Assembly: GCF_009389715.1 (NCBI RefSeq)
Contig: NC_052393.1
Location: 1,488,001 to 1,552,000 of the forward strand
Source of the DNA: Phoenix dactylifera
Taxonomy: Eukaryota; Streptophyta; Magnoliopsida; Arecales; Arecaceae
DNA: 64,000 nt
Direction of reading: 5' to 3'
Shown here one piece after another: positions 23,464 through 46,690 of the stretch (position 1 is the first letter of the stretch; each line of letters begins with the position of its first letter). The translations under genes were made by a program, and so were the position numbers. The notes beneath the pieces were generated by a model. It was not told where the DNA came from. It did no database searches and saw nothing but the letters and a program-made list of their open reading frames with translations.

Positions 23464-26405
23464 GTTATATGGGATAAAATTGGGTTCACATAGCTTTTCA
23501 GATAACTCGTACAGGGTTCTACTAATGCTAGAAATAAGTCAACAACCAAAAAACATGTGCTCTTTCAGAGTTGCAATAAATTCAAAGACAAAGTTTTAAA
23601 TAACTCAACTGGGTTGCACTAAAATTTATATGGGACAAAATTGTTGGTGCTGGTCATGGTCATGACTTAATTTCATGTCCAAAGTAGGCCCAAGTTCACA
23701 CCCTCTAGCAACTTTATTTGTACTACCATGCAGCACACATGTTTTCTATGAAGCAGATTATCGTCAAACTTTAATCATGCTGAAATGACCCAATTTTCCC
23801 ATTCTCTAGATAAATTGAGCAGTTAGGGTAGTTGTGTTTATTGGAACATGATGCTCGTCATACATTTAGTGTGTGCAGTCTAATTTGATGAAACAAAAAC
23901 TCTACCTTTGCATTATTGAGAAAGCAAGGGTATGTTTTATTATCTATGCTTTATTTTACTACTAAGAGCATTAGATCATCACTTAACTAACTATTTTGAT
24001 CTTCTATGTTACTTTCTCTTTCTCAATTATCATTTCCAATTGGCACTTGCTGTAGATTGATAGGAACCTATAAGTTCTTCAAATACCAGTCTTAAGGAGA
24101 ACATAGAACTGTTTAATGCTCTAAATTGTCTTCTATATCAGAAAAACCAAAATATTGAAGGAATGCTTGCTCACAACTGGTATAACTTCTGTGCTCATGA
24201 TGCAAAAGATTACCCAATTAGAAAATATGCTTTCTATTTTGCCCCCCTTAAAACTGACTTCATCTATAATAAAGTCGGATCTATGAAGTCATAGAGAAAA
24301 CTTGTATGATTCAGAAGAAATAAATGTGAACTTATTACACTAGATTGTAATAGCAATAAACTACCATAAAGTAATGTTGGCAGCTAATTAGGAGAAGCAA
24401 TACTATCAACTTATTAGTTTCCTAGTCTTGTTTATATTTGATAGCAGTAACTGAAGAATTGCAGTTAATGCTCTCAATTAGCGGATTCGTTATTTTTTTT
24501 TTTTTTTGTGGGTGTACTTGTTCTTCTTCAAGAGAAATTCTTCTTCTCTACAGTTTCCTGTGGGGGATTAAATGACTCCTAACATTTTTCAATTTCTTAG
24601 AGGACCAAAGATGAGACCTAACATAGATCCGTTCTCTTTTTTCGCTACAGACTAATGAAAACTCTGAGAACCAGTCATGGAATGCCATTGGATATAGCTT
24701 ACCCACTGAGGAAAAGCCACCAAAATCCCAATCAGAGAGGCCTCTTGAGAAGGGTATCATAGAAACCATGGATCAAACTGATTCATCCCTCCTCCAGTCC
24801 CTCACTATGAAAGGCCTGGCAGTCTCCCAAGACCCAAACCAAAACTTGTACGAAATTAAATGCGACGTTGCCATAGTTGGTTCCGGCTGCGGAGGAGGAG
24901 TCGCTGCCGCAGTGCTCGCAAGCGCCGGTCGCAAGGTTGTAGTCATTGAGAAGGGCAACTACTTCACATCGGAAGACTACACCTCCATCGAAGCCCCCTC
25001 CATGAACGAAATGTACGAGTCCGGCGGAATTCTTAGCACTCTCGACGGGAAGATTATGCTCCTAGCCGGATCCACGGTCGGGGGTGGCTCTGCTGTGAAC
25101 TGGTCAGCTTGCATCAAGACACCAGACCATGTCCTCAAGGAATGGGCAGAGGAACGTCAGCTTCGTCTCTTCGGGAGCACAGACTATCTCTCAGCAATGG
25201 ACGCAGTCTGTCGAAGACTTGGAGTCACGGAGAATTGCACTGAAGAAGGATTTCAAAACAAGGTTCTTCGCAAAGGCTGTGAGAATCTTGGTCTTCAAGT
25301 AGATTCCGTGCCAAGAAATACCTCGGAAAGACATTTCTGTGGCAGCTGCTGTTATGGCTGTCGAGAAGGAGATAAACGTGGGACTGATACTACTTGGCTG
25401 GTCGACGCTGTTAACCATGGCGCCGTGATCATAACCGGATGCAAAGCTGAGAGATTTGTATTCAAAGAGAATGAGCCAGGGAAGAAGAAGACGAAGAAGT
25501 GCGTGGGATTGATTGCCAAATCTTTAAGCCGTATGGTGACGAAGAAACTAAGAATCCAAGCCAAAGCAACCATTTCAGCATGCGGTTCTCTCTTGACACC
25601 CCCGCTGATGATTTCTAGCGGGCTGACAAATTCAAACATAGGCAGGAACCTGCACCTTCACCCAGTAGTTTTCGCATGGGGCTACTTCCCGGATTCGGCA
25701 TCGGACCACCACCACCGAGGCAGAGCTTTCGAGGGAGGGATCATCACATCGTTGCACAAAGTGAAAGCGGTGGAGGATTCGGATTCGAGCTTGCGGGCGA
25801 TCATCGAGGCGCCGGCAATGGGGCCCGCGTCCTTTGCTTCGCTGGTCCCCTGGGTGTCGGGGCAGGACTCGAAGGAGAGGATGGCGAGATACAGCCGGAC
25901 GGCGCTTCTCTTTGCATTAGTAAGAGATCGCGGCTCGGGGACAGTGGAGGGGGAGGGGAGGGTGAAGTATCGGTTCGATGCGTTGGACAGGGAGAATTTG
26001 AGGGAGGGGCTGCGGAGGGCGCTGCGGATTCTGGTGGCGGCGGGTGCGGTGGAAGTGGGGACGCACCGGAGCGACGGGCAGAGGATGAAATGCAAGGGGA
26101 TCGAGGAGAAGGACTTGGAGGAGTTTTTGGATGGGATTTCTGCGGTGGGAGGTCCGATGTCTAGGAGAGAATTGTGGACCTTGCATGCCTCTGCTCATCA
26201 GATAGGGAGTTGCAGGATTGGAGCGAGCGAGGAGGAGGGTGGGGTGGATGAGAGCGGGGAGAGTTGGGAGGCGCAGGGGTTGTTTGTGTGCGACGGAAGT
26301 GTGCTTCCAAGTGCTGTTGGGATTAATCCTATGATCACCATCCAGTCCGTTGCCTACTGTCTCTCCAAGGGGATTGCAGAATCCTTGAAGAGAGGTTCTG
26401 AATGA
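21818..26405 (+). CDS. Long-chain-alcohol oxidase (FAO), GMC oxidoreductase
   Basis: Three exons (21818-22069, 22818-23090, 24651-26405) join in frame to 759 aa, the usual plant FAO length. The start is chosen because [20 protein letters not shown] follows closely, as in FAO N-termini. Residues ~97-118 and ~161-175 are hydrophobic helices, fitting a membrane-bound enzyme. The FAD dinucleotide motif [11 protein letters not shown] is at ~248-258. A Cys cluster [20 protein letters not shown] follows, and the GMC C-terminus has [13 protein letters not shown] (~687-699) and [19 protein letters not shown]. FAOs oxidise long-chain fatty alcohols to aldehydes using O2, releasing H2O2, in wax and lipid turnover. 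All splice sites are GT-AG. The 3' end was duplicated into the zeta-COP intron at 14991-16021. The gene converges on the succinyl-CoA ligase gene. Confidence 0.95.
23419..23460. repeat. (AC)n microsatellite in FAO intron 2
   Basis: About 21 uninterrupted AC units. Confidence 0.97.
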
Positions 26406-26961
26406 GAGAGAGATATTGTTATGGATTGATTTGGTTGTCCAAGAACACATCATTTACTAGTAACCTTTGACAACTACGGTACAATCTATATAATGATAGA
26501 TTTAAAATATCTATCATGGTTACAGTCTCTTGTTATTACCCTCCAAAATATTGGACCTGGAGAAGGTTTGGGTTTCAATATATTCCATGTAGTCCCTTCA
26601 ATCCGTAAAAACTACAACTTCTATTATGACTGCCAATACTGCTCCTCAAAAATCTTGAAATCTTTTCGAATTCTGTTGCACGTCAAAGCCTTCACAGATC
26701 ATTTTCTTTTTCTTTTCCTTTCTCCTTTATTTCTCTTCTTTCCCTATTTTCTTTTTTTTTCTTTTTTTTGTTCAAATTTCCAAACACATTCGACCCCACA
26801 CGCACGTCTGAAACACAACATTTTGCCTTTCCCCTCATCTTTCAATATGGAGAAAAATAATTATATTTGGAGAATAAAGAAAAGTTGCATGACCAATAAC
26901 ATCGAAGAGGAGCCACGACAATCCCGATTCAGCCGTGGCCCATGAACTCCTCCGTCAGTCA
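25902..26961 (+). repeat. Source copy of the FAO 3' duplication
   Basis: The segment from CGGCGCTTCTCTTTGCATTA to about GTCAGTCAGC has a near-identical partner at 14991-16021, including the pyrimidine tract (26701-26770) and the AGGAGCCACG/CCGTGG flank. The gene context at this end identifies it as the parental copy. Confidence 0.9.
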
Positions 26962-27106
26962 GCTTCGAGAATTGGTAGAAGCAAACCACTCTATTTCAAA
27001 GGGTTCGCCCAAAAATTCAGTTGCCCAAAAATGTAGCGAGTGCTCCTGGCAAATCATCAGAGCACCGGGTTTCTTTCTTATCCAAAAAAATTAGTCTTCA
27101 TAATTC

Positions 27107-30100
27107 TTAGCTTGAAGCAGCTTGTACAGCTTTTTCTGCAGCATCGTCCAAATCTTCTGCCGCGATCAAGGTCATCCCACTCTCCTACAAATTGTAACAC
27201 CACCACTCTCAATGTTATATTGGTTTCTTTACAACAGACAACAGAACAAAAAGGAGAAAAGAAAGTAGACAACAAAAAGATCTAAACTTATTGTTGGATA
27301 CCTTGAGAATTCTCTTCCCCTGATCAACATTGGTTCCTTCTAAACGAACCACCACAGGTACTTTCAGTGAAACCTGGCAATTACAGGGGGAAAAAAAAGG
27401 TTTAGTTCACTTCAGACTGCAAATATAAGCATGAAAACAAATATTTATTCATGTCTCAGAAAGGTGGAAAGTAAATACGTGATTCAACTAGCCTCTGGTA
27501 TCAACTAAAGCTATCCAATGACGAGTATCCATGAACAAGATAACTAGATCCAGCAAAATTTTACGTTCTTAAAATGTTGTCACAGGATGGCTCCTTTGAG
27601 AAGAGTACGTTTCCTCATGGTGGAATCAAGTTCAAGTGCAGCAGATATGGTGAATAATCTTAAGGTCCAGTTTTGAATGGAAAACTAATCAAATACAGAT
27701 CAAGTGCAAATTCATTGATACAAGAATTTTCAGGAAAAATTAGGAGCATGAAGAAATAGGTAAAAGATTTTCTTTTTACCTTGAAAATTAGATAATGATC
27801 CTCTCAGTTTACATTTCTTATGACAAAAAAGTATAGTCCACGGGAAGCCATTATGACCCAGGACTTTAACAACATTTTGAGGATTTCTCAAATCAATCAT
27901 CACAATCTAAATCTGCATCTTTCATAATCAATTCTGTTGAGTAACGTTTCAAATAAAGGAATAAGTTTCTACCACAATCATTTAAATAAAGCAAAGCATA
28001 TTTTATTAGGAGCATATGTTAGGTTGCCTTCTGATCTTAAGGACTGCATAGCCTCAAGAATAAGGGTGCTCTCGCTAACACAGTTACAGATCTACTTGGC
28101 ATAAAGGGAAGCAAAATATTAGTGCAAAAGTTAAAAAAAAAAAAGAGCGTTTAACAGAAAAGATACCTGTTTGGCTGCATTGACAATTCCACTTGCTATC
28201 ACATCACATTTCATGATTCCACCAAATATGTTGACCAAAATTGCCTTCACTTTATCATCAGATGTTAATATTTTGAATGCTTCCACCACCAGAAGAACAA
28301 CTTATCAAGTTAGGCATATCAATAGGAAATGAATCTTAAATGATGCATAAGCATGTTTATAATTAACAGAAAGATGAAGCACATACATATTAATGTGAAT
28401 TACCATCTTAAAAATAAAAAAGAAAATACTCCATCAAGAAATCTGGTTACCATACTCGTAACCACCAGCCAATAATAGATCTACAAATATTTGTTTCTTC
28501 ATTTTATCTTCTCAAGTTAAGGATAGATACTTAAAACATTGATTAGGCAGCTTTGCAGCTAAATAACTATAGTTGTTGAACTATTATTTGCACCTGGCCT
28601 TCTGAAGCATTTCCACCAACATCAAGAAAATTGGCAGGAGTACCACCATGCAATTTTATTATATCCATCGTAGCCATAGCCAGTCCTGCACCATTAACCA
28701 TACAACCAATTTCTCCATCTAACCCGATATAGTTCAAATCTGCTTTCGCAGCAGCAACCTGAAATAGAAAAGAGAATTTACGAAAATAAAATGCAAGGAA
28801 CACAAGGCTATGGTATGTTTCTTTGACAAGCAACGATATTAAATTAGTAAACCAGAATTTTTAGGCTTGTATATGTAGAAAGACTAAATGCTTAGTTCAA
28901 TCATATCCATCAGGCATTTTTTTTATAAACAGTTTAACAACTTCACACCAAAATGACTAGAACATGTGTTACACCTCTCTAGGATCTTCCTGGGATGAAT
29001 CACGGAGAGCAAATATCTCCTTCCGACGGAAAGCAGCATTGTCATCAAAGTTCAACTTTGCATCAGCTGCTACTAGCTGGTTATCAGATGTCTCGGCAAT
29101 TGGATTTATCTAACCAGCAGAAGTATTCAAATGTTAAAATAGGAATGATAGCTAAAGAGTCGAAAGAGCATTAAAATTGACAAAATTCACAAAGAATTTT
29201 GCAGCTAGGTCAAAATTCTGTGACTAAGTTACCTCCAACAATGTGCAATCACATTCACAAAAGAGTTTGTAAAGCTTCTTCACTTGTTCTATGGAAGCAT
29301 TTCTATCTGCTACCTTAGGTGCTAAACCATCAACAACTTTAGCTGCAGCTTCATCTGTGATTCCCTTGAAAACATCAACCGGAACCTTGCCATTGGAAGA
29401 AATGAGGTTTAGTATACCACTATACCAACCCAGAATCACTAAATTGTGAAATTAAAAAAAGACCTACATAGAAATAACAAACCAAACCTACTAATCATCT
29501 CCGAACAGTACTCTGATAAACAAGAATAGAAATGAGATGACCTTAATGATCATGTCAGGAAATTTTTCTGCGAGGTCCTCAATGCTAGTTCCTCCCTTTC
29601 TACAAGCTATGATGAGCTGAAAAGAATGATAACAAGTAAGACGAGCAGAAGATCCATATCTTGATTGGATAGTGCAGCTTAATATGAAGACCACATGAAA
29701 GTAAATAAACAAGTGACCAATCAAAAGGAATAAACAATTCCAGCTATATAGATTATTTAACATTATCAGTTCGATTTATGCATATGTATATTTATGATGT
29801 TTGTTAGTTTGCCCACAAAATCCACCTAGGTGTCTGCCTAAGTAGCCACCTTCTAACTCAGCACTAGGCAACACCCCAGCAGCGTACATAATGCAACTTA
29901 CTTCCAAAACACTACTTAAGCCAAAGTTCATGATTGCTATAACCCATGCTATTGAACAACTAACCAGAATGCACTCAAAGATCACATACACATAAAAAAA
30001 CTCAAATCAAATATTTCAAGTTGAGCATGGACTTGCATAGAAAGAATATTATTTAGCCATTTACAAATTGTAGCTGCCATATATGAGAATGTGTAATATG

Positions 30101-33100
30101 GAATAAATCAACCATTACCCTAGTAAATAGTTAACGCTTAGCACAAGAAGAGACTAAGACTCCCCTTGCATGAACGCTCCTTCAGCTCCTCCAGATAGCT
30201 CATATCTTTTGTCACACACCAGATTTTAAAAACTTAATTTGTCCATATTTTTTTTCTCCAAAGGGACAGGAAGTAAGACTAAAGTTACTAGCAGACGATT
30301 CCCAAATGCCTATACATGCTTTGAACAAACACCTTCCAAAAACTTTTTCAAAAAGTTTTTTTTTAAGAAAACATGATTTGTACAAAAAATGGATTAAGGC
30401 AGCATAAGGTTTCCATGAAAAGTGATTTCATTTTTTATTTACATGTTTTTCAGGAGTAAAAATGGTGAAAAAATCTTTTTACCAAATATTTGGCAACCTA
30501 TACAAACTTAAAGTTATCTACTTTTGGCAAAATCATATATGCCACTTATTTTTTTGAGAAGCTTCATAGAAAGGAAACCTAAAATATGATATTTAATTTT
30601 TATTATTTAAATGTTGTTTCTGAATTGTAATTGAACAAGTCGCATGCACCAGTGTACTGTGCCCATGATCAAATATCACACTACATGCCATATGGCACAC
30701 ACCAACATGGCCAGGTTCAAGTCCATGTTTTAAAGGATACAAAATCCTTTCTTTCATCATCTCCTTGATTTCAATCTTCTTCCTGAAATAAAGATTGTTG
30801 AGTTGTATAGAGCCTACTTGTGTCTGAGAATGAATGTGTGACTGTGTCCTTGTGTTGGAGGGAGGGGGGGAGGGGGGGGGGGGGGGGGGGGGGTATGTGG
30901 GGTGTGTGTGTGTGTGAGAGAGAGAAAGAGAGAGGAGGAGGGGGGGAGCCAGGAGGAGTGGGGCCAGATGAATTAAGTAAACAAAGCACCTAGGATTTCA
31001 AAATTTTGCATTGATTTTTTTTCTAGAATTTCGATCATGAAACATGGCTCTGATTGGAGACAATATAGAAGTGCTTCTCTTGAACATTCACCTTCCAAAA
31101 GAGAAAAATATTGATAACTTTGAGTTAAAATAGTAATTTTATGTAGCAAAAACCAAACGAAAAAAATCAAAAATAAATATCTGGTGACAAATGAAACATG
31201 TAAATACACAATTAAAATTTCAGGTCAATAGATGAAAATGTCTTATAGATCATGCAAAAGAGAACTGAACAGGGTACCAGAAACTTCCAACATGATTGGA
31301 GGACATACCGGACCAGCAGTTTTACGGTCAAGGGTGATGGCAAAGTACATCTCATTAACAAGTGATAGCTTCTCACACAAGTACACCTGTGACAAAATAA
31401 GGTGTTATTAACATTTTTAATGCCAAAAAAATATCTACAACAATTTCAGTGAAATGGATTAACTTCTATATCTATTAAGAATGCAGCATATGACAAAGTG
31501 AGTTCGAGATTCCACCCTCAGTCTCTAGAAAACAAATTTAAATATGTTTAGTGTTTACAAATATGAATCTGGTATAATGATTATGATCATGACCAGAAAC
31601 CAGTACCACGATATATATTACAATTTTAAAATTTGAATTTAAGACTAAAAATTCCTTTCAGTTCATCTAGCTATCTATAAGACTCGATGTAAGATCTCAA
31701 AAGTTGGGGCCCAAATCTTCCTTTGGTCCTTTTATTTTTCTTTCCCTTTTTCCCATTTTACTTTTCTTTTTTTGTGTGTGTATGGAGTTGGGGGTGAATG
31801 GGTTGGGCGGGCATTCTTAGCGACATTAGACTAGGTTCATCACTCATGAGTAGGCTAGCAATCTAGGCAATTAATTGTTCAAATCTTGAAATAAATTATT
31901 TATTTTTGTCAAATGCTTAACATTCTGAATAGATCAATACATAATAGCCATGACTTTCTCATCTTTTCTTTTTAATCTGTTTGTTCTCTGATATTTTCAT
32001 TACTTTGAAATTTAACAGATTGAAGTTCACACTTTCCAAGACTTACGAGGATGGATCTATTGAATTATGTACGATAAATATATGATTAATTTATAAGGCC
32101 TACAAAGTCCAAAAATTGCTTGAATGAAATATTCGCATAGATAAGAAATGCTACCACGTGAACCAAGAACCACTCTTTTAACTCAAAATTTGAAAATCAA
32201 TACTAAAGTGACACTAAATACCAAAAAAAAAAAGAAAGATCACACAATGACATTAAAGAGATAAACAATGGATAAATACAGTGTTTATGCTCAGTTTTTG
32301 TCAATTTCCATCAAAACTGACCGAAACAACTGAAAATGGCTTAGTGGACCAAAGCTTGTCGGTTTCGGCCAAAATTGCCTATAATCAGAAAATAACATAT
32401 TTCAGTTGCAATGAATTGGGTTTAGGCTGAAACTAGAACCTTGATATGCAGATAGCATCAAATCTGGGGAAGGGTTTGAATAGCTTTCATGTCCTTCGCA
32501 ACTCTTATTCAGAAAGACTAATATAAACAAATAGGTGCTGACACTTATTCATAAACAAAGTGCACATGTTACCTTTACTCACTTTCCATTTTGTTTTCTC
32601 AGTTTTGTATTTCTAGTTAATATTTTTTTTGCTTCTACTTAGTTATGTTCCGTATCTCCTTAATTCAATTTATTTATGTATTTTTTTTTGCATTTTTAGT
32701 TTAGTTTTAGTTTTGACTTTAATTTTATATATCTTCTATTATTTAATATTTTTTCCTAAAGTGCATTGCACATGTCTATTGGCTCAGTAGAACCTATTTG
32801 GATAAGGAGGATCTAAAACCATCTGACCAACTGTGCTTCACAATTTGCCATGCAGTCCATTTTTTCTTAACATGCAAATAATAGAGTTTTGCTTTCTCTT
32901 GTTACAAATTCTTGCAAGAAATATACACAATAACAAAGTAATATGATACAAAGCCACGACCTCCAAATAATATGTTTCACATGTCCCAACTAACAATGAA
33001 ATGTGTTGTTAGAGGAAGATGATTTACAATAGAGAAAAGGAAGAATGTTTTATATAACTACATTCTAAAACCTTGTTTATGAAATCAAAATTTTTTTATG

Positions 33101-36100
33101 AGTCCTCATCCACATGATTGATATTTGCATGCATCCTTTTATCATAGTCAATTTTACTATAACAATTAAAGTTGCAAGAATTTGTTTATGTGCATCAAAG
33201 TTTAATGCTTAAACATCTGCTAGCATAAGAAGGCTGTCTTATATGCAGTCTAATTCAAACTGAGGCAAGCTAGTTGGGTACTTAGCTTTAGTTGGTTGTT
33301 ATAGATTTTTAACTAATGTAGCCCAAACTTAGGTTCTTCTAGGATGAATGATGCTTTCAAGAGAAAATAAAGGAATCAACTGTGGTGTTATCAATATAAA
33401 TTATTCAGTGACATCAAATGATCAGTAAACTTAAATTATTTGATGCATTCCACTGTTAAAGCTTAAAAGACTTAGATTTACATACCAAAACCATACTTTA
33501 CAAAACTTAACACATACTCTATGAATCCTTTTTCATCACCCATTCCTATCACCTGCAATAGTACCTATTATTTATTATTCATTTATAGTGGCTAGAATTA
33601 CAATCCTATAGACAAAGTAGCAAAAAAAAGTTGATTGCATCCAAATCAAGAACTTACAAGAACATAACTGGCAAGTTATAGTTTCACATTGTATTTCCAA
33701 TGAGGCAGAAGATTTGAGGGAACCAAAAAAGAGAACACTCTAGGTGGGCATCTTGCTTTCCAACTGCTGAAAAGTAAGCAGGAAAGGACTCAAAACTAAG
33801 TATAATTTTATGCACCCCTTAAATATCTCAACTGAACATAGAAACCAGAGAGACTAAAACAGCTTCTATATAGACTGAATCCACCTCTAAACCAGGGCCA
33901 TGAATAAGACCATGAACTTCAGGAAGTGTATGTCCCATTTAACATATAATTAAGAATATAGAATGAATAGACAATAACACGAAAGACTGTAATGAAGAGA
34001 CATTATATTACCACTGATCATTGAGCATACAGCAAGAATAGAAAAGTTACCATGGAAATACCAAATTTAAGGTAAGGAACTGACTAATATACAAAGCTGT
34101 CTTAATCAGAAGTATTCCCTAACCTTGCTCACAATCTTTCCTTGGGGGCCAGTTTGTTTGGTGACCAGAATCTGGCCAAGCATTTTACCTGCAAAGAATG
34201 AGTGCATTCAGTTGAAACATAGAAGAATCCTGAAATGAGAATTAAATGACATATCATGAAATATATTCCAATAAATGTTCTAATCGTTTTATAAAAGCAA
34301 GCTCAGTAAACATCCTATTTTAACTGCTCCACAACATTCACCGTCTGCTAGGTGAATGCATCTCCCATCGGGCCTCTCATGTCTACGGAGAAGGCAACAG
34401 TGAAGCAGATTGGGTGGCCTCCTATGCGGTTCATCATTCAAGAGACTTCATCTGGGTGGACCAGGCTTATGTCCCGTCTTCCCTGCAGTCTATTTTACTT
34501 TCTGACTTTTTGGGCACTGCTCACACCCATTATGTGTGAGCCGCCGATGTACCAAAAAAAAAGCAATACCAAACGAGCCCTTATTTTTCTTTATTTGCCA
34601 ATTTAAAAATCTTTGCAACTTCGAACTAATAACATGTTTGTAAACTTGGGGAAAAGAAAACAAACTACAATTTTTGTATCTCAAGTGATGGATTTGACCC
34701 TCCATGTAGACTGGCTAGAAAAGAAGCAAACCGTTCCTTGACTCATGCATTCCAAAACTCGAATCTCTACTTGCATCTGTATGCTGCATGATAGCAGTCG
34801 GCAAATTTACAGCGAGGGAACCAGACGGAGATGTATATATGTTTTACAGTTCTAGCTCTTCTACCATCCTTCTCCTATATGTTAACTTTATCCCTGCAAA
34901 TCGTTAGTGTTTGTCTCATATATGGTACAGGCATTTGTTTTACATTAACTCATAATTTGCTGCAACCATTAAGCCTCCTTTCCCCTATGTTTTGCAATCT
35001 CTATGTTCATGTGTATTGCATACATTTTTCTATCATAACCATCAATGGTCAATACATATAGCTGATTGCGCCAAATGAGTAAATCTTTACAAATATATGG
35101 TACAAAATTAATGAGTGCATGAAAAAGCCAGCATCCAGATTTCAAAATTTTAACTTAGTTATCATGAATTCCTGTCATATATAGTGCTTGGGCAGTGTTA
35201 ATGGTATGTCACATGAGTATGAATTTGTGTTAGAATCCAACATACACAAGATGTTGGATTGTAGACACCTAAGAAAAAAAGTAGGAAATAAATATATGAC
35301 ACAATTTCGCTGGATTTTTTAAAGAAACGTCAAATGGGTCATAACTCAGATTTCATATTTCTTTTCTTCTTCTTTTTTGTTTGGGGGGGCGGGGGGGCTT
35401 AAGATTTCAGAAAAATATATATTAACTTGCTGATATAGTGAAGAAATAAAGCAAGACTCTTGGCCATTAAAGGCCAAATTCCTGAAAAGATATGCTCAGT
35501 TGTATGGAATCTTACATACAGGTGAAAGATGCAGCTCCTCCCTGCCAAATGGCACACTAGGTCATGACAAGCCTCTGTCTTCCTGAAAACTTGCCTTTCC
35601 TGGGAATTTGCTTTGGAGAAAGTTAAGTGAGGTTAAGTTGAGATCCAGTCCTTGAACATTCCCATATTTTTGGAATGGATCATATATCTTGATCTCTAAA
35701 GTAGAGAGCATACAAAATGGTTAAGGCTGGTAGGTTAAGTACAACTGTAACAACTCAGAACCTCACCCAAAATGGCTAGCCGGAAATTATTATTTGGGCT
35801 CCTTGATCCTGTATAAGTACTCAAGATCTACCCAGCGAATAACCGATGTGGGACTAAACACACGCCCGCACGGGTCCTTACATACTCCCCCCATTCATGC
35901 CCTGACGTCCTTGTCAGGCTAAGGGTTCATATCCATTCAAATCTAATCACAAACACCACGATTGGCCCGTGGTCAGCCCCAATGGATCCATGCTGCAGGT
36001 CCCCTAGTCCACATAGGTTATGGGCCGGGTCCGCTCTGATACCATTTGTAACAACTCAGAACCTCACCCAAAATGGCTAGCCGGAAGGTATTATTTGGGT

Positions 36101-39100
36101 TCCTTGATCTTGTATAAGTACCCAAGATCTACCCAGCGAATAACCGATGTGGGACTAAACACACGCCCGCACGGGTCCTCACAACAACAAAAGTTGAAAT
36201 TACATATTGTCAATGAACAAAAACTAGGGTTGGCTTATTTTGTGGTTTTATAGTTATATATGTTTAGAACAAACTCAAGGTTAACAAAATAATTTGTTGT
36301 AACCTGACAATTGACAGATGGTCCATCCATAAGAGAGCAAGTACAAAACAGAACAAGATGTATCTAACAATAGCTGAATCTGAGCCTAACTTAACCCATT
36401 CCATCCGCTTGCATACAACAGTCTAAGCTGGCAACATTTTTTTGTGGGGATTTAAATCATTTAAGTATCGGATAGATAACTTAAACTCTGGCTTCAATTT
36501 CAAGAAACATGCTAAATTCACAGGAGAGTTATTAAGAACAAAGTGACATGAGCGTACACTTACACACTGAAGGGCATAGTATTATCAAAAACATGATTAA
36601 CTTGTCTTCTTATTCCTACTCCATGTGCAGTGCATGCACGCTGTTACAATATCCTATCTACACTCTATATGCATAAGAAGAAAGGGCATTTGCATCAAAT
36701 ATATTTCATTCATCTTCTTATCTTCATCTGGGTGCATTTCCCTGGAGATCTTATTGTATAATATGGCATAGGTCTTGCCAGGCTTCACCACCATTATATA
36801 CGTCCCATATCCTTCGGGCAATGTATCAACCTAGTACCAATTATCATCTATCTCTATGCATCATAACCTATCAACAAGCAGGGTCTGAAACACAACAATG
36901 CATAGAAAGATGTATCAATACAATCAGTTCTTTTGTACACAAATTTTACTCAAAGTGTGTTTCTTGTAATATTCTTTCCAAAACAAAGTATTGTTATTAT
37001 TAATTTGGTCGTAGTGTCTTTCTGTTGATACATGTCATCTATCACAATGCATAACCTAGTTGTATTTGTTACATTTATAAAACAAGTAGTTTTATGTATA
37101 ATATTTTCCTCTTATAATCTTATCATAGAGCTGTCCAAAAAATTACATGTTCAAATTTGTCACATATTTTTGTGTGCTTTAGAGTATGCATCTATAGGGG
37201 TTGAGTACTGAATATAGCAGTGCTAGTGCATCCAGCATTGCGTACCTTGCAAGACCCACCTAGAATGAACACGATATACAACATTCCTGTCCTGGATATG
37301 TGGTACCTAAAATGTACTCTTCCTTTTTAAGTAACAATTCCCAAATAACTTCAAATAGGTTGTAGTTTTATCATTAAAAGAATGAGGCAGAGAGTTAGGC
37401 CTATTTAAAAAATGTAGAAAAGTGACTCTGGCTAGTCTCTATGATAGAAAAGAAAAAAGACTTACTCTAGCCTTCTTTAATATGAGAAGATTGCAAATAT
37501 TAAAATTCTTATTTTGATGAGGAATGAGAGATGAATGAAGATTCCAAAAGCCCAACAGATATTGATTTCATATCATCAGCCAGCAGCCTAATGTGAGGTG
37601 CTTACACATACAATATAATACATCCTATCCCTGAATTTTCTTCCATCAGGGATCCTAATCTATATATTCCATTACCTCCATACAAGATCATGATTCCTAA
37701 GCCTTTTCCAGTATCAGAAAAACAAACACTATCAGATTGTCTAATTTATAGATCCAGACAGGCAGGCTTAAATGGTCATCCCATCTTTCCACAATTATAC
37801 TGATAATAAACATATTATTAAACAAAAATAGAGATGAAAATATAGAATAGAATTATCCCTCATACCAGCCAAATCTTCTGCCTCGTCAATTTTAACAATA
37901 TGCACTCCACCCTTAAGTCCACTCTTAAAGGTTCCCAAGCCTCAAGAATTTGACTTTTCACAACCACCTGCAGCAACAACGTTGGCATTGTTTAAGATTC
38001 ATAGATTAGTTCAATTAGGGTAACCAGCATGTTGAGTATTGGCGCAAGAAAACCTGAAACAACGTCAGTGGATCCAGTAATCCATTCAACATACCAAAAT
38101 AGATAAATGCAAAGAGACATTGCGGACAAAAGTTGTAACAACCCAGAACCTCACCTAAAATAGCTAGCCGGAAATTATTATTTGGATTTCTTGATCCTGT
38201 ATAAGTACCCAAGATCTACCCAGTGAATAACCAATGTGGGACTAAATACACGCCCGCACGGGTCCTCACATACTCCCTCCGTTCAAGCTTTGACGTCCTC
38301 GTTAGGCTAAGGATTCAAATCTATTCAAATATAATCACAAACACCACGATCGGCCCATGGTCAGCCCCAATGGATCTGTACTGCAGTGTCTCTTAGTCCA
38401 CATAAGTTATGGCCCGGGTCCGCTCTGATACTATTTGTAACAACCCAGGACCTCACCCAAAATGGCTAACCGAAAGGTATTATTTGGGTTTCTTGATCCA
38501 GTATAAGTACCTAAGATCTACCCAACGAATAACCGATGTGGGACTAAATACAAGCCCGCATGGGTCCTCACAAAAGTACTAATAACACCATCACAATATA
38601 CAACACATCTTAGTATTGCCAGTGGCAGAGCATATAGAAAATGCTTCCTTGTCCCACATCAAATGCTCATATTTTAAAGCTGGCATGATAGCAGTGGTAA
38701 ACCATATCTGGCAACACCATATGATGCTACAGAGTTTCATATGTCTTGCAAATAAGATGATGTCTTGTCCAAATTACTTAATGCTGATTACATATTTGTC
38801 ATCATTTTTTCTTGAACTTTTGTTTCCATTAATTACTGATGCATCATTAAAAGATTACCATAGCGCATTTTCTATGCTTGCAGAGATTTATATAAAGAAC
38901 ACACAATATACAAACAATCGGAAAATGTTTCAAGAATCACCATGAATGGCATTCAGAGAGTCTCGTCACTAAAAAGGACAGAAGTGGCGGCTATCATTTG
39001 AAAAATCCTACACAGAACAGATCAAGAACCTGATATGCTATATACTAAAGAATAACTATACCTCCTTTTCATTGGGGAAAACATCTTTGATGGCCTTTTT

Positions 39101-39613
39101 CGCCTCCTCGGCAGAGCCAACAGCAACTCCCCTTGGAACATTTATTCCATGCTTTGACATCAATTCAGCGCCCTGCACGATACCAGTATTAGATTCCCAA
39201 CAGAAAAACAGATCCAACTTAAAGATGAAGGTCATTAAAAGAATACACAGCACTGAAAGAATGAAACAAAGAAAGAAAGAAAGCAGTGAAAATATGCCAA
39301 CAATAATTTAAAAAAAATATGAATTCTTTGCATGATAGCGAAAATTCTCGAACAAGACTTAAGGTATTGCCAGATCGAATAAAGATAAAAGCCAGTACGC
39401 ATAAGAAAATCATACATCTTTCTCCTTTTTCTCTGATAATAACACAGACCATCGAAGTAAGATCTAAAGAAAAAACACAGAAAGGAAACACGAGGAGGAT
39501 GGAATCTTGACCTGGTATTCATGGATGTTGAGGCGCCGGAGCTGTTGCTGCTGCCATCTACCGGCAAACGCGAGAGACCGGGACACGAGCTTTCCAAGCG
39601 ATCCCCCGACCAT
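27107..39613 (-). CDS. Succinyl-CoA ligase [ADP-forming] beta subunit, mitochondrial (possibly disabled)
   Basis: Twelve minus-strand coding exons: 39613-39512, 39172-39062, 37967-37866, 34188-34124, 31386-31309, 29616-29542, 29385-29233, 29109-28975, 28758-28594, 28289-28167, 27373-27302, 27184-27107; expected product ~421 aa. The N-terminus ([20 protein letters not shown]) fits a mitochondrial transit peptide, followed by [11 protein letters not shown]-grasp and ligase parts include [77 protein letters not shown] and [20 protein letters not shown]. The enzyme makes succinate and ATP from succinyl-CoA in the TCA cycle. Two defects are visible. Exon 3 lacks 10 nt exactly where the nucleotide-binding AGGRG should be (SQIL then directly GLGTF in another frame). 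The expected acceptor of exon 10 reads CTTCTG before GTGGTGG, without AG. Either the gene is decaying or the sequence has errors; identity is certain, function is not. Confidence 0.9.
30861..30957. repeat. G-run with GT and GA simple repeats in an intron
   Basis: GGAGGGGGGGA is followed by 22 consecutive G (30872-30893), then (GT)n, then a GA-rich run. It lies on the non-template-like strand of a succinyl-CoA ligase intron and has G-quadruplex potential. Confidence 0.95.
34330..34563 (+). mobile_element. 3' end of a LINE with RNase H-like tail
   Basis: One frame reads [20 protein letters not shown], then [20 protein letters not shown] and a stop after AHTHYV. This matches the C-terminal RNase H segment of plant LINE polyproteins (HVYREGNxxADxxA). 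It is followed by GCCGCCGATGTACC and an A-run, the usual plant LINE 3' end. It is 5'-truncated and lies in a succinyl-CoA ligase intron, antisense to that gene. I could not fix a target duplication. Confidence 0.7.
35746..36183 (-). mobile_element. Complete TRIM element, family 2, copy 1 (137 bp LTRs)
   Basis: Direct terminal repeats of 137 bp (35746-35882 and 36047-36183) begin TGTAACAACTCAGAACC and end CACA/TACA. In minus-strand sense the primer-binding site AATGGTATCAGAGC follows the 5' LTR (plus coordinates 36033-36046), and a GGGGGGAGTA purine tract precedes the other LTR. The target duplication ACAAC is perfect (35741-35745, 36184-36188). It is 438 bp with no coding capacity and looks structurally whole. 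The LTRs differ by a few percent. Confidence 0.95.
38134..38572 (-). mobile_element. Complete TRIM element, family 2, copy 2 (137 bp LTRs)
   Basis: Same family and orientation as the copy at 35746. LTRs are at 38134-38270 and 38436-38572, with perfect 5 bp target duplication AAAGT (38129-38133, 38573-38577). The LTRs differ at roughly one site in ten, so it is older than copy 1. It sits in an intron of the succinyl-CoA ligase gene. Confidence 0.95.
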
Positions 39614-39984
39614 TCTTCCCAAGAGCAAACCTTGGAATCGTATAAAACGTAGCGGAAGGAATAAGAGGAAGCGAAGAGGGAAGGAAGAAAAGATGCAACC
39701 TTTTATTTTCTTTTATTTTCCTTGGTTTTTTCCTTGTAATGAGGCCTCGATGTCGGAGTGCAAGGATTTTTAGCTGTACCGCCGGTGCAGCATAAATTAA
39801 GGTGGGCAGGCGCTGCCTTAGCCAGTCTGGAGCATGCCGACGGCCAATGTCATCCACCTCGAAGAGTCGAAGTTGATTTGGCTACCGGAACTGAGCGTGT
39901 ATGGGTGCTGCCACCACATACTTCGGAATATCTCTGGTGAGTATCATACGGATATATGTTTACCTTTACATCGATTATTTATTG
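39614..39984. promoter_or_regulatory. 5' flank of the succinyl-CoA ligase gene
   Basis: The promoter and 5' UTR of the minus-strand gene should lie here. I cannot assign a TATA box or start site with confidence, and no other gene is seen. Confidence 0.4.
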
Positions 39985-40355
39985 AATAGATATTAATATT
40001 TATATAAGATTATAAAATTCAAATAATATATATTGACTAGTTTTTTTGAGTAAGATTCTGAATTATGACAAATGGTATCAGAGTAGATCCGGCTCATAAT
40101 CTATATAAACTAGAAGATATTGCAGTATGGTTTCATTGAAGCTGATTGTAGTGCTTATGATTAGATTTGAATGGATTTAAATAGTTAGCTTGACGATGAC
40201 GTTGAAGCTTAAACAGCGCGCTCCACGGCTTGTTATATATTCACTTTTTTGAATATATTTATACTAAATTTATATTTTGATTTTTTTATATATTTAAACT
40301 AATTTTTTTTTTAGCTTTAGGTTTATACTAAATTTGTATAAGCCATTCGGTACAG

Positions 40356-40439
<84 letters not shown>

Positions 40440-40650
40440 TTAAAAATTACATAATAGAATGAAAACAAATATGCTGAATTTTGTGCACTGTTGTTCATTT
40501 AGTATTAGAGCAGATCCAGCTCATAACCTATACAAACTAGAAGACACTGTCGTACGAATTTATTGGGGCTGATCGTGGTGCTTATGATTAAATTTGAATG
40601 GATTTAAATCGTTAGCTTGATGAGGACGTCGGAACTTAAACGGTGCTCTG
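39985..40650 (+). repeat. Two diverged partial TRIM family 2 copies
   Basis: GAGTAAGATTCTGAATTATG (an LTR end, to 40070) is followed by the primer-binding-like AATGGTATCAGAG, then the family's internal sequence to about 40235. The same internal phrases (AGATCC(A/G)GCTCATAA, CTAGAAGA, GATTTAAAT, TAGCTTGA) recur at about 40496-40650. Both are broken, old remnants; a long TA microsatellite separates them. Confidence 0.75.
40359..40434. repeat. (TA)n microsatellite, about 37 units
   Basis: Uninterrupted TA repeat between the two TRIM remnants. Confidence 0.97.
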
Positions 40651-40794
40651 CAACTTGTTATATTTTTATTTTTTAAAATATTATACTAAATTTATATTTT
40701 TTATTTTTTTAATATATTTCTATTAGATTTGCAGCAATATATATATTAAACTTTTTAAAAATTACATGATAGAAAAAAAAAAACAAAAAAAAAG

Positions 40795-41085
40795 GTGCTG
40801 GATTTTGTGCACGGCTGCCCATTTGCCATGACCTATCATTTTGGTGCACATAAAAAATATATTTTCTAAAAATCACATGATGAACAAAAAAACAAAAAAC
40901 CGTGCTGAATTTAGCGCACTAGTGCCCATTTGTCATGACCTATCATTTTGGTGTACATAAAAAATATATATTTTTAAAAAATCTATTTTCCAAAAATCGT
41001 ATGATGAACGAAAAAACAAAAAAAACGTGCCGGCTTTTGTGCACAACTGCCCATTTGTCAAGACCTATCATTTTGGTGCACATAT
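40795..41085. repeat. Tandem repeat of about 120 bp, two and a half copies
   Basis: GCCCATTTGCCATGACCTAT with TCATTTTGGTGCACATAAAA recurs at about 40816, 40926 and 41050, separated by AT-rich and A-rich spacers containing ACATGATGAAC/TATGATGAAC variants. Confidence 0.8.
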
Positions 41086-41680
41086 AACAGGCACCTACCA
41101 TAGTTTCAACTTTGTAGATCATAATATCGCCGTTTGACAACCATTATGGGTAGGTTGCAATCCAAATCGTAGGACGCAAGCAAGAATTATTGTATGGAGA
41201 CAAACTGAGTATATATAGTATGCTCATCTATTTTTCCTTTTTATCATTTCTACCACATGCCTACAAATGAACCATATATAATAATTTTGATAGAGAATGA
41301 TTTGATAGATTGATGGTGCATATATGTGTGCTTGGCACACCTTCACTTCTGCTTCTCATTTATTTATTTTTTTGTTTAACCAAAAAATTCATACAAATAG
41401 AACGAATACATCCAACAAAATCAAAATTTGATACACCTATTTAAGGTACAGCCTTACCCACGAGTGACTACATGGCATAATTCAATACACTAGTATAATT
41501 CAGATAAAATCATCATTTCATATGAATTTAATTAACTGTAATACAATGGATGATTTTAAAAGTAATGTTCTAAATTCTGGTAGGATGAGAAGAATCTAGC
41601 CATCCGTTCCAGTTTCTGTGAAAGGATGAAAGTGAGACGAGGGCAGGACTTCGAAACATATCCTCGTGGGAAAGAAAGAT
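41086..41680. other. Intergenic, nothing recognised
   Basis: AT-rich, no gene or repeat boundary that I can support. Confidence 0.5.
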
Positions 41681-41838
41681 GAAAGAGAAAAAAAAATAAA
41701 AAAAGGAAAGGATAAAAAAACGAAGCGAGAAGAAAAAAAATTAAAGAAAAGAAGAAGGAAGGAAAGGAAAGAAAATCAAAAGAAAAGAAATAAATGAAGA
41801 AAGAAATAAAGAAAAGGAAGAAGAAAGAAACAAAGGAG
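41681..41838. repeat. Polypurine tract (GAAA/GGAA-rich)
   Basis: Nearly unbroken purines on the plus strand, directly before the PPR pseudogene. Confidence 0.9.
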
Positions 41839-41939
41839 AGGCGGTGATGCTGAGCAGGATAGTCAGTGAGTGGGACAGAGGGCTACTCTTTCAGTGGAGA
41901 AACCGGTATGCCTCATCTCAAGGGATTGAAAGCGAGATT

Positions 41940-42738
41940 TATAAGTTTTCTAATGTGATGAAGTCATTGGATGTTATGTGGGAGGAATTGTCTGGGATGC
42001 AATGCTCGGTGGCCATCTACAGAATGGGCAACCACAAGAAGTAATTGTATTGTTTTCTGCCATGAAGGGACTTGGATTTGAGCCTGATGAATTCACTTGT
42101 GTCAGCATTTTTGGTGCTTGTGCTTGTTTGGAGAATATAAATTTAGGCAAGCAATTGCATTCTGCTGTAATCAAGAGCAATCTTGAGGTCAGTCTCTTTT
42201 TGGAGTTTATGCTGACTTAGATGCTTTGGGAGATGGCAAGGAAGTCCACAGCCTCTTAGTATGCGAGCAGTGCTCTTATATAAGCGCTTCCCTTCAAGTC
42301 TTTAAGGCTTGGAATGTAAAGGAGACATGAGCTCATGGAACTCTATGACTTTTGGATTAGCAAAGAATGGGTATGCTGTAGGAGCATTCATGCTCTTCCT
42401 AGTGATGGATGAATCACAAGCAAAGCTGATGGTGTCACATTCCTCGGCGTCCGTCCGATGAGTTGATTGACGAGCTACACCCTGAAACTGATGGTGTGAT
42501 CTGGGCCACATTGCTTGCAGCTTGCAGAATTCATGGGGATGGAATGAGAGGGAATGAGCAGCTGAGAAGCTTATGGATTTGGACTCACATAAGTCTTCTC
42601 CTTATGTGTTGCTTTCTAGTATATATGCTGCATTTGGTAATGAAAGAAAAAACCCAGGTTGATTTGGCAGTTGTAATGAAAGAAGATTGTTATGTTGCTG
42701 AACTTGATCAGCTTTTCCTGGATGAAGAGTTTGGATGA
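41940..42738 (+). pseudogene. Pentatricopeptide repeat (PPR) protein pseudogene
   Basis: PPR-type segments appear in order but in shifting frames: WDAMLGGHLQNGQPQEVIVL then GFEPDEFTCVSIFGACACLE and LGKQLHSAVIKSNLE; GDGKEVHSLL; MSSWNSMTFGLAKNGYAVGA; DGVTFLGV; ELHPETDGVIWATLLAACRI; SSPYVLLSSIYAAFGNE. This is the plant organellar RNA-binding PLS class. Frame changes occur near 42190, 42240, 42300, 42428 and 42560, and parts of repeats are missing, so no functional protein can be made. A continuous copy elsewhere in the genome is the likely parent. Confidence 0.85.
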
Positions 42739-42740
42739 GG

Positions 42741-43188
42741 TCCCCTTGTATGTTCTTTCATGAATCTCAACATGTAAACTGTAAAGAGACCAAGGCCGTG
42801 GATATCAATTGGACTTTTTTTTTTTTTTTGAGGAAATATCGTTTGGACTTTAAATTACCCAAGGGATACTTGGTTACCACATCCTAAGAAGCTTGCTATT
42901 TATGTAGGAAGGTATTGCTTCCTCCTACCTTGGACTGTCTCTGAAAAATTGTAGTTCCAAATCTCATGACAGGAGAATTTGATCTAATTCACTAGCATTG
43001 CTTGCAGCTTATCAAAATCATAAAATGTATGGATGGCAGGTTCTTACATCTGACATTGCTTGAGGATCTGCTCAGGTTGGAATTATAGAACAGCTGCAGG
43101 AAAATTAATCATCTTCTCTTTCTCTCTCTTGAATTCTCATGTTCAATGAAATGGAAGTGCTATTTGAGCCCTGAAATTAGTCCCCTAA
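42741..43188. other. Intergenic after the PPR pseudogene, nothing recognised
   Basis: AT-rich, with a T-run at about 42816. It may include decayed 3' flank of the PPR gene. Confidence 0.45.
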
Positions 43189-44503
43189 GGGGGCGTTTGG
43201 TAACCCCAGCAGGATCACCACGGTGATCTAAGATCCCTGGTGATTCGAATACTGGGGTGATTTGATTCCTAGTGATCTAAGATCAATGTGTTTGGTAGGC
43301 TATGGTCCAGTGATTAAAAATCCCTGGGTATCCATGAGTAACTTGTTTGGTATGGTACGGGGATCCAAGATCACCGACCACATAATACCACAAATACCTC
43401 TGATATACCTTAGATGGATTTTTTATGTATTTTTAATTCTCATGAATCAAAAATATAAGTCAATATACTAAATTGTTACAACATTGTTCTTTTTATTCTA
43501 TTAAGACTACCATGACTCGGCCTAATTACCAAAAATTTGTAGTCGTTTTAAAGCCAAGTTTCTTTCCACTTGCTCATCATTTTTCATTTTTATTTATTTA
43601 TTATTTTATTTCTTTTTTTCCTTTCTTTTTTTTTTCTTTTTTCTTTTCCTTTCTTTTCTTTTCTTTTCTTTTCTTTCCTTTCTTTTCTTTTTTTCTTTTT
43701 TTTTTCCTTCTTTTTCTTTTCTTTTTCTTTTCTTTTCTTTTCCTTTTCTTTTCTTCTCTTCTTCCTGTTTCTTCCCGAAGCTTCTCCTCTTCTTTCTTCT
43801 TTTTGTTTCTCCTCTTCTCCTCCATTTCTTCTTCTCTTCTCCTTCTTCTTTCCAGAACTCCTTCCGACTTCTTCTCCTTCTTTCTTTCTTCTCCTTTCTT
43901 CTTCCACGAAGAAAGGAAGGCGAGCTCGGGAGGGAGGCTAGCGGGAGCCCACCCCATCGTGGGGAGCACAGGAAGGGCCTCCGACCGAGGATCGGCGGCG
44001 CTACGGCCATGGATCCACCGGTAAGTGGCCATTCCCTCCTCCTTCTTCTCTTCTTTTTCTTCTTTTTTTATTCTTCTTTTCTTCTTCCTCTTCTTTCTTC
44101 TTCTTTCCTCTTATCCTTTTTCTTCTTGTTTTTTTTCTTCTTTTCCTTTCCCGATTCATCAGATCTCCCCTCTTTTCCCACGAAGCAAGGGGGAGATCTC
44201 CCTGTCAGATCGCTCGGGAGGAGCTGGGCCGAGGCCGACGATGCCCGCGACCGGCTAGCAGCGCCCGCGGGACGGCTGCGGTGAAGGATAGTTTGGTCAA
44301 CATCAGATCACCGCGCTTTGGTGATGTTGGAAACCCGTCCTCAAGGACGGGTATCCGATCACTGGACTGGACGGTGATCTAAAAAGTGGGGTGATCCGAT
44401 ATCACCGCCACGTAGGATTACTAAGATGAAACCAAACACGGTGATTTCACTTCATCCGGATCACTCTTGATCCTGCGGTTATCACCCCATATCAAACGCC
44501 CCC
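43189..44503. mobile_element. Non-autonomous TIR element, probably PIF/Harbinger-like
   Basis: Inverted ends: left GGGGGCGTTTGGTAACCCC, right in reverse complement GGGGGCGTTTGATATGGGG, with further inverted subterminal GTGATCTAAGATCxC and GGATCACC motifs. The flanks are TAA (43186-43188) and TTA (44504-44506), consistent with but not proving a 3 bp TWA target. The interior has polypyrimidine tracts (43600-43900 and 44030-44160) alternating with GC-rich blocks (43905-44025 and 44160-44290). No transposase is visible; the open frames are low-complexity Phe/Ser or Lys/Glu/Arg artefacts of the tracts. Confidence 0.65.
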
Positions 44504-44841
44504 TTAAAAGATCCTGCGGTTATCACCCCATACAGCTGACATCCTCTATAAGCCGCTTTTCCAAACTCTGCAATTTTGACAGAAGTTATATTCTTTTGAA
44601 GAAATGTAATTCTTGACCTATTTTACACCATGATTATCTTAAAGCTGATTGTATTTTCCCTTTCAATAAATAGTTTGTTAATATCCTTGCTTTGGTGATG
44701 CAGTCATATGAATTATATAAGAAGCCTTTGATAAAGAAACACGGCGAGCAATTAAATGAAAGGCTAAAAGTAACCCTCCGTATTTTGCATGAATTTGCAA
44801 ACACTTTTCCGCATCTCCAATTGCAAATAACTTGCCACGCA

Positions 44842-45242
44842 TGTGAGAACTCATGCGAGCGTATATTTAGTCCCATATCGGTTATTCGCCGAGAAGATCT
44901 TGGGTACTTATACAGGATCAAAGAATCCAAATAAAATATTTTGGCTAGCCATTTTGGGTAAGATTCTGAATTGTTACAAATGGTATCAGAGCGAACTCAG
45001 CCCATAGCCTATGTGGACTATAAGACACTGCAGCTAAGTTTATAGAGGCTGATCACGTTGAATCCTTAGCTTGACGAGGACGTCAGGGTTTGATCGAGAG
45101 GAGTATGTGAGGACCCATGTGGGCATGTATTTAGTCCCATATTGATTATTCGCCGAAGAGATTTTCGGTACTTATGTAGGATCAAGGAACCCACATAATA
45201 CCTTCCGGCTAGCCATGTTGAGTGAGGTCCTGGGTTGTTACA
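44842..45242 (+). mobile_element. TRIM element, family 2, copy 3, opposite orientation
   Basis: LTRs of 137 bp lie at 44842-44978 and 45106-45242. The primer-binding site AATGGTATCAGAGCG follows the left LTR (from 44979), and GAGAGGAG precedes the right one. Flanks ACGCA/ACGTA are an imperfect 5 bp target duplication. It is diverged from the copies at 35746 and 38134 and lies in plus orientation. Structurally whole, no coding capacity. Confidence 0.9.
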
Positions 45243-45930
45243 ACGTATGCACAAGTGACAAGCTCTAACCCAATCGAAAGGTCGGTGGGTAACATAGCAA
45301 CATTCTGAAAAAATGAACAATGGTTATTACAACAATTGAAGATAGAGAAGGATATTCGCAAAATCATGCAAAATGTAGAGGATTATTTTTTTTTAGCCTA
45401 AATGAAAATAGAGCGAACATATGAAACAAAAGACAATTGTGAGAGGATATTTTACTATGTTGTTCCATATTTGGTTAATCGGCCCATTACATTCTGCAAA
45501 ATGAATAGAAAAGTTGTTCAATATATCAGCCACCATTCAAAAGATTTGCAAGTTTGCTGTTAAAAAAGGCAACAACTTTTATGCACGGTAGAGAATGTCA
45601 ACTCAAGGAGACCCAGAGTTCTGAAAATATTAATGCAAGTATAATGAAAGATTTCACAATAGTGAGAAATTTATAGCTAACAAAACCGTTTGTTGCTTCA
45701 ATGACAATCCAAATCATAACTTATATAACACACAGAGACAATCTAAATGGTTAGCTGTAGATCATCTTTAGTGCACGTTTATAGCCAACAAAGACAGCAG
45801 TATGATCCTTTGCAGCTAGCCGAACCATCTCCCGTTCTGGTGATAGTCCAAACTCCAAAATATGGTCAATAGAAGACAACTGCAAAAATACGGGGCATGC
45901 TATCTATTTCTCATCTTATTGGAGGGTGTC
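45243..45930. other. Intergenic, nothing recognised
   Basis: AT-rich, no supported gene. Confidence 0.5.
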
Positions 45931-45937
45931 ATGATAT

Positions 45938-46690
45938 ATTTGGCCGGGTAGAGTTAGGCTCTAAAATAGAAATGGAAATAAATGATTTCTACTCTAGCCG
46001 TTTAGTTGGGAGAAGTTTCATTTCCATTCCCATTCCCATTTTGGGAGAAATGGGAATACTCCAATCCCTCAAAATCCAATCCCGGCTCTCCCTCTAGTAT
46101 TCAAAATCCATTCAGCTAGTTTACTTAAAAACATTGAGGATGCATTTAGTTTGCGCTCGGAATCGGAATTAGAAGTCGAATGGATCGAAATTAGAACCGG
46201 AATGGTCCTATTTCCTGGTACCATGTTAAAATCACCACTTATCCCAAAAGCTTAAGCTGATAAGATAAAGTAGATTTATTTATATATTTTATATTTTCTT
46301 ACAACATTTAGTTCATGGCTGAAATCAAAATCGAAATCATATGTGAATATTGGGGGAGAGTTGGGATTGGGTTTTGGAGAATTGGATCATTTCTATTTTT
46401 CTCTAGAATCGGAATGAGATTAGGATTTCTTCTAACTAAATAGTTGGAATAGGAGTCACTTATTCTCATTTCTATTCTAGAGCCTAGCTCCCCCGACCAA
46501 ACATGCCTTGATTTTCCAAAAATACGTTTATGTTTAATTGATTTTCTAACAATACCTCATCTCGCTATTCTGATTCCGGTTTCAGTTACGAACCATGCTC
46601 ATTGGGAAATATGACCATTTTGATTTCCATTTTAATCCATTCCGATTTCGACTTTGATTCTTGTTGCAAGCCAAACACACCCGTAGGACC
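45938..46690. mobile_element. Two overlapping MITE-like inverted repeats
   Basis: Pair A: TTTGGCCGGGTAGAGTTAGG (about 45938) against the reverse complement of the sequence ending near 46507 (GTTTGGTCGGGGGAGCTAGG). Pair B: about 46138-46217 against 46606-46686, sharing GGAAT..GTCGAA..ATGG..GGTC(A/C)TATTTCC in inverted orientation. The two pairs interlock rather than nest, so one insertion plus rearrangement, or loss of one end, is needed. No coding content. Confidence 0.5.
46224..46303 (-). repeat. Isolated TRIM family 1 LTR
   Basis: An 80 bp reverse-complement match to the LTRs at 20965 and 21167, including CTTATCCCAAAAGCTTAAGC. A TGGTACCAGG-like primer-binding remnant is adjacent in element sense. 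No second LTR and no clear target duplication: an incomplete fossil lying within the MITE pair region. Confidence 0.85.

Follow-up and report, generated by a model that had tools for sequence, protein, structure and literature searches.

How do retrotransposons that encode no protein move? No protein-coding relative was found for 278 of 289 subfamilies of terminal-repeat retrotransposons in miniature (TRIMs) by Gao et al. (PMC4717578; this paper, PMC7215508 and PMC3281118 are cited here for the parts considered), so how most TRIMs move is still open. The question is raised again by a 64,000-nucleotide stretch of the date palm genome (Phoenix dactylifera; RefSeq assembly GCF_009389715.1, contig NC_052393.1, positions 1,488,001 to 1,552,000; hereafter the window), which holds several copies of one TRIM family, here called T. 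We found that T is a non-coding element with long terminal repeats (LTRs) and 5-bp target-site duplications (TSDs), that it forms tandem arrays within single TSDs, and that it is joined to other retroelements at the primer-binding site (PBS). One of these partners, a large gypsy-type element that we call Y, is a candidate helper.

T is represented in the window by three whole copies and two remnants:

35746-36183, minus strand: copy A (3' LTR 35746-35882, internal region 35883-36046, 5' LTR 36047-36183, PBS 36033-36044), flanked by the TSD ACAAC at 35741-35745 and 36184-36188
38134-38572, minus strand: copy B (3' LTR 38134-38270, internal region 38271-38435, 5' LTR 38436-38572, PBS 38422-38433 with one mismatch), TSD AAAGT
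44842-45242, plus strand: copy C (5' LTR 44842-44978, shorter internal region 44979-45105, 3' LTR 45106-45242, PBS 44981-44992), TSD ACGCA/ACGTA
39936-40220, plus strand: remnant D, a decayed 5' LTR with PBS and internal region and no recognisable 3' LTR
40491-40646, plus strand: remnant E, PBS and internal region only

Copies A, B and C measure 438, 439 and 401 bp, have LTRs of 137 bp (TGT...ACA) and carry a purine tract before the 3' LTR. The PBS, TGGTATCAGAGC, starts 2 nt past the 5' LTR and is exact in A and C, with one mismatch in B and D and two in E; we take it to be complementary to the initiator tRNA (tRNA-iMet type). The TSDs match at 5/5 positions for A and B and at 4/5 for C, and random pairs of flanks in the window match at 5/5 with a rate of 0.0018. 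The whole copies had been described in this form, down to their coordinates, before the present analysis, and our results agree, with the PBS mismatch in B as an addition. No open reading frame (ORF) of at least 150 aa overlaps A, B or C, and the strand of A and B holds only stop-to-stop pieces of 40-70 aa. An nhmmer profile built from A, B and C recovered them, by construction, at E 5e-162 to 2e-135, and matched D at 39939-40216 (E 9e-36) and E at 40491-40643 (E 5e-27), both on the plus strand; as controls, the shuffled window gave a best match of E 0.058 and the reversed window none at E 10.

Three copies inside 9.5 kb, two of them co-oriented, could be segmental duplicates of a single insertion, an origin that was specifically looked for. 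We give it next to no credence: the TSDs differ, the 250-bp flanks of the three copies show no mutual similarity, C lies in the opposite orientation, and the 5' and 3' LTRs differ unequally, at 6, 15 and 29 of 137 positions in A, B and C (Kimura two-parameter distances 0.046, 0.121 and 0.264). At assumed substitution rates these values would correspond, very roughly and not as firm dates, to insertion 2-4, 5-12 and 10-25 million years ago, and 40 of the 65 changes from the majority of the six LTRs are C>T or G>A. The data thus support the preliminary description in treating T as a TRIM family and A, B and C as separate insertions of different ages. Local duplication does fit D and E, whose alignment runs on through the 3' flank (40075-40295 versus 40502-40719, 81%). 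Because this flank is common to both, they are, judged from sequence, probably one insertion that was locally duplicated; both broken copies reported earlier are present, but they probably do not count as two insertions. Adjoining them is a diverged tandem repeat (40739-41087, three copies about 107-125 bp apart). Copy C has inverted repeat arms of 58 nt on either side (44766-44823 and 45333-45390, 74% complementary) and may therefore be nested in another element.

To follow T beyond the window, we searched the palm's own genome (773,078,369 bases in 2391 contigs) with the 3' LTR of A. Forty of 2848 first-look candidates were scored, one being the query itself, and all 40 span the full LTR at 95-100% over many contigs. 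T is a dispersed multicopy family in this genome, and the LTR search that had been proposed did not point back to one locus. We fetched 32 loci covering the scored matches outside the window and counted 31 as distinct, because L023 (contig C1135) and L027 (contig C376) each hold three T copies in nearly identical order; the assembly may accordingly hold both haplotypes or a duplication there. Simple copies with a TSD account for 11/31 loci (ten at 5/5; L014 at 4/5), and a solo LTR with a TSD for one (L019). Outer TSDs matching at 5/5 enclose three same-strand three-LTR arrays (L021, L024, L026), three complexes (L015 with five LTRs; L031, inverted; L035, inverted and with a foreign LTR-like end) and four composites with other retroelements (L017, L025, L037, L038). 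No outer TSD was resolved in the remaining 9/31, of which L041, L042 and L045 join foreign LTRs or LTR-like ends. At L029 (G000:C253:43300-47400), eight T LTR pieces in both orientations lie within about 1.8 kb.

The four composites are all joined at the LTR end and PBS, and their outer TSDs imply a single integration each. In L017 (TSD CCATC) the order is T LTR, PBS, a miniature element X with a 243-bp LTR, PBS, T internal region, T LTR, the two T LTRs differing at 2 sites. L037 and L038, as well as L041, begin with the large LTR of Y, followed by PBS, T internal region, T LTR, PBS and the leader of a larger element. The two Y LTRs are 99.25% identical over 2123 bp in L037 (L046+L052; TSD TAGAC) and 99.92% identical over 2482 bp in L038 (L047+L053; TSD TATAG), so that both are young large elements with a T internal-plus-LTR module in their leader; for L041, some 13.5 kb of downstream sequence (L054, L055) yielded no 3' Y LTR. 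The ORFs of L037 (579 and 1160 aa) share a frame, are separated by a single stop codon and contain gag, Ty3 capsid, protease, reverse transcriptase, RNase H, integrase zinc-binding and SH3_Tf2-1 domains; the domain scan reported neither an integrase core nor a chromodomain in either. The one ORF scanned in L038 has SH3_Tf2-1 and a Chromo match just below the Pfam cut-off. Y is classed as a large Ty3/gypsy-type family, with a chromovirus-like label that is tentative in view of these chromodomain results. L025+L058 (contig C761; TSD ACAAG/ACAAG) has another order: T LTR, T internal region, T LTR, PBS, Y internal region, Y LTR. Its Y-type internal region is 91.5% identical to L053 over 1564 bp, and its 3' LTR of about 2.5 kb is Y-type (88% and 71% to the LTR of L047 in two stretches). 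Whereas the outer LTRs are alike in L017, L046+L052 and L047+L053, the ends of L025+L058 derive from unrelated LTRs, T at the 5' side and Y at the 3' side. The purine tracts of T and Y are alike beside the 3' LTR. The spacer between LTR and PBS is AA in T, TT in X and GAG after Y LTRs, that of Y being known solely from these joins. In L037, L038, L041 and L017, each join has the spacer type that belongs to the LTR preceding it (in L038, T is followed by AG), as transfer of a plus strand ending in a copied PBS would give.

A second kind of mixture was seen among the LTRs of T themselves. Four sites pass a minor-allele threshold of at least 15% in 72 ungapped LTRs, and of these site 96 alone varies by transversion (A 39, C 31, T 2). 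Paired LTRs were compared in 12 two-LTR copies: A, B, C and nine fetched copies whose TSDs match at 5/5 and whose LTRs are 137 bp long, with L014 and L022 excluded because one LTR lacks a base. The pairs differ in 9/48 comparisons on these four sites versus 70/1596 elsewhere (Fisher p 3e-4), the old copy C supplying 4 of the 9 differences. Three of the 12 pairs (A, B and L036) are A/C discordant at site 96, where 0.07 were expected (P 6e-5), and the arrays L015, L024 and L031 also combine both alleles. The mixed alleles of A and B fit recombinant complementary DNAs (cDNAs) or former arrays that lost one unit. A systematic asymmetry between 5' and 3' LTRs, suggested by A and B, was discarded: other copies are mostly concordant at site 96, which reduces the idea to mixed alleles in some copies.

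Based on these findings, we infer a helper step, co-packaging and strand transfer at the common PBS, and consider it probable that T is an ordinary TRIM co-packaged with the PBS-sharing gypsy element Y, its candidate helper, and that arrays and composites arise by transfer at the PBS. In this working model, T RNA would be copied and integrated by the proteins of another element, and T and Y RNAs would be packaged together. Plus-strand DNA of one element could then transfer to the minus strand of the other at the PBS, which is possible because both have it in common. Transfer from T to T would yield LTR-internal-LTR-internal-LTR arrays, and transfer from T to Y a composite with a T LTR at its start and a Y LTR at its end. 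The order Y LTR, T internal, T LTR, Y internal, Y LTR would require an extra exchange, such as recombination of a one-LTR circle at the PBS; this is the least secure part of the model. A composite formed by T/Y transfer would make Y or a close relative the likely helper, and a TRIM LTR and a gypsy LTR at opposite ends inside one TSD would be a physical trace of copying in the same particle. A broader version, tenable but doubtful, treats T and gypsy elements as one recombining pool sharing the tRNA-iMet PBS: the gypsy element would be the helper and bear the T module as a mobile cassette in its leader, and PBS strand transfer between co-packaged cDNAs would be the general source of arrays, composites and mixed LTR pairs.

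Several observations weigh against transfer with Y as the origin of these structures. A single transfer yields T...Y ends and leaves the order with Y LTRs on both sides unexplained; L037, L038 and L041 may share one ancestral event; and L025, the sole case with mismatched LTRs, has the Y-type spacer GAG after its T LTR, departing from the spacer pattern of the other joins. T is also joined to X and to other LTR ends, and a Ty1/copia-type element beside the Y of L046 has an iMet PBS too, so a shared PBS would not by itself point to Y. The fetched loci are the top of a similarity ranking and thus non-random. Because A and B prompted the site-96 test, it is in part post hoc; the fetched pairs alone give 1/9 (P ~0.02 by our own arithmetic). 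For the window LTRs, non-monophyly of the pairs was not upheld: the best tree splits them, yet ordinary pairing was not rejected (approximately unbiased test, p 0.30 and 0.25).

Some of these points would suit a TRIM with another helper, perhaps Ty1/copia, whose arrays and composites are chromosomal by-products, that is, adjacent or nested insertions that later recombined, unequally or illegitimately, at the short shared PBS. The TRIM partners that Gao et al. give for flowering plants are of copia type (PMC4717578), an element of that type with the identical PBS is present here, 9/31 loci are without a resolved outer TSD, and chromosomal recombination accounts for most of the complex elements surveyed by Sabot and Schulman (PMC1950507). 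We nevertheless judge this origin unlikely, as outer TSDs match at 5/5 in the four composites and six arrays or complexes, against the random rate measured in the window, and the Y elements bearing the T module have near-identical outer LTRs, which implies that the module was already present at insertion. Quite improbable, in our estimate, is that the T module in the Y leader is a passenger captured once and uninformative about the helper of free T. The shared order of L037, L038 and L041, whose T LTRs differ pairwise at only 2 sites, is what a single capture would leave; at least two events are required, however, given that L025+L058 is arranged differently and has a T LTR as its outer end.

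For date palm, Gao et al. list nine TRIM subfamilies with 777 complete and 13,358 total copies (PMC4717578, Table 1); they have the same TRIM structure, copy-number range and 5-bp TSDs as T, which may be one of them. TRIM/gypsy composites are not reported in the parts of that paper examined, whereas T forms them here. In the rice pair OsajRetroS10/OsajLTRA10, a TRIM and a larger element share LTR and internal sequence, and a PBS-containing repeat flanks the break point (PMC4717578); that partner is a Ty1/copia element with the same LTR as the TRIM. Y, in contrast, has gypsy-type domains, and its LTRs of 2.1-2.5 kb are unrelated to those of T. Tandemly arrayed TRIMs (PMC4717578) and arrays of Cassandra (PMC7215508) resemble those of T in their LTR-internal-LTR-internal-LTR order, with some inverted and with one TSD. 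Cassandra is also described with the same PBS (PMC7215508), but T is without 5S sequence, and its arrays also mix LTR alleles and other families. Two-element complexes with a single TSD, as found here in L017, L025+L058, L046+L052 and L047+L053, were described by Sabot and Schulman in 2007 (PMC1950507) as arising during reverse transcription; these authors also mention VejuL and BARE2 as cases of jumping from one RNA to a different one. Their complexes lie within one family, are joined through R and have matching outer LTRs, whereas the T composites unite a miniature and a large element at the PBS, and in one of them the outer LTRs do not match. SMART (FRetro129) of grasses is likewise a tiny, often intronic LTR element with a candidate partner sharing PBS, polypurine tract and internal sequence; as described, it differs in size from T, measuring 292 bp with 85-bp LTRs, and is reported only from grasses (PMC3281118). 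TRIMs, tandem arrays and template-switching complexes are thus already known, and the difference lies in the joining of T to a gypsy-type element, in one case with outer LTRs that do not match each other, of which we found no earlier report in the open-licence papers searched. The composite supplies a concrete helper candidate from a superfamily that is not among the TRIM partners given for flowering plants in the parts of Gao et al. considered (PMC4717578).

Other identities for T were also considered. Membership in Cassandra was rejected: nothing in the window reached the Rfam gathering scores, and copy A had no 5S match at E up to 10, a level at which its Rfam search gave only three weak small nucleolar RNA or small RNA matches. 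Helenus (TRIMp3) or another RNA polymerase III-type TRIM was set aside, as ARAGORN and Rfam found no tRNA; matches to the box A and box B motifs were no better than in shuffles. A captured initiator-tRNA anticodon arm in the internal region was likewise dismissed: the match spans 11 nt in A and is shorter in B and C, with shuffle p values of 0.037, 0.44 and 0.30, respectively. In prokaryotic and viral collections, a 22-mer had no match. A 21-mer had one, in an alphaproteobacterial metagenome-assembled genome (profile E 1e-4 from that word alone), and a 15-mer had four, all short profile matches only (best E 0.006); both results are taken as chance. A literature search for the LTR motif found none alongside 'retrotransposon', and the 10-mer papers among the matches listed are, by title, not on retrotransposons. 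By eye, no autonomous partner was seen among the 25 ORFs of at least 150 aa in the window, of which a part was profile-searched.

Copies A and B lie in a host gene:

27340-39623 (outer limits approximate), minus strand: exons of a succinyl-CoA ligase beta subunit (ADP-forming type)

With splice sites read by eye, B falls between the second and third exons (about 39063-39171 and 37856-37967), and A within the intron that follows the third, with the next exon near 34183. This reading bears out the earlier placement of both copies in introns, in the sense orientation of the gene. The third exon (37856-37967, minus strand) spans two reading frames and lacks four conserved residues that solved homologues have, as would result from the loss of about 10 nt or from an error in the sequence. 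The gene may accordingly be broken or misassembled, and the introns that hold A and B may not belong to a working gene.

The window contains further repeats. A second, unrelated TRIM at 20965-21246 (plus strand) has 80-bp LTRs with 3 differences, the TSD AACAC/AACAC and the PBS TGGTATCAAAGC at 21045 with one mismatch; a lone LTR of this 80-bp type, followed by a decayed PBS start, lies at 46216-46302 (minus strand). A possible DNA transposon of about 1.3 kb (43186-44506) has terminal inverted repeats of 17 nt that are 94% complementary, and it includes long stretches rich in pyrimidines. Finally, 14989-16022 and 25899-26963 are duplicated, 91.5% identical, and overlap GMC oxidoreductase reading frames.

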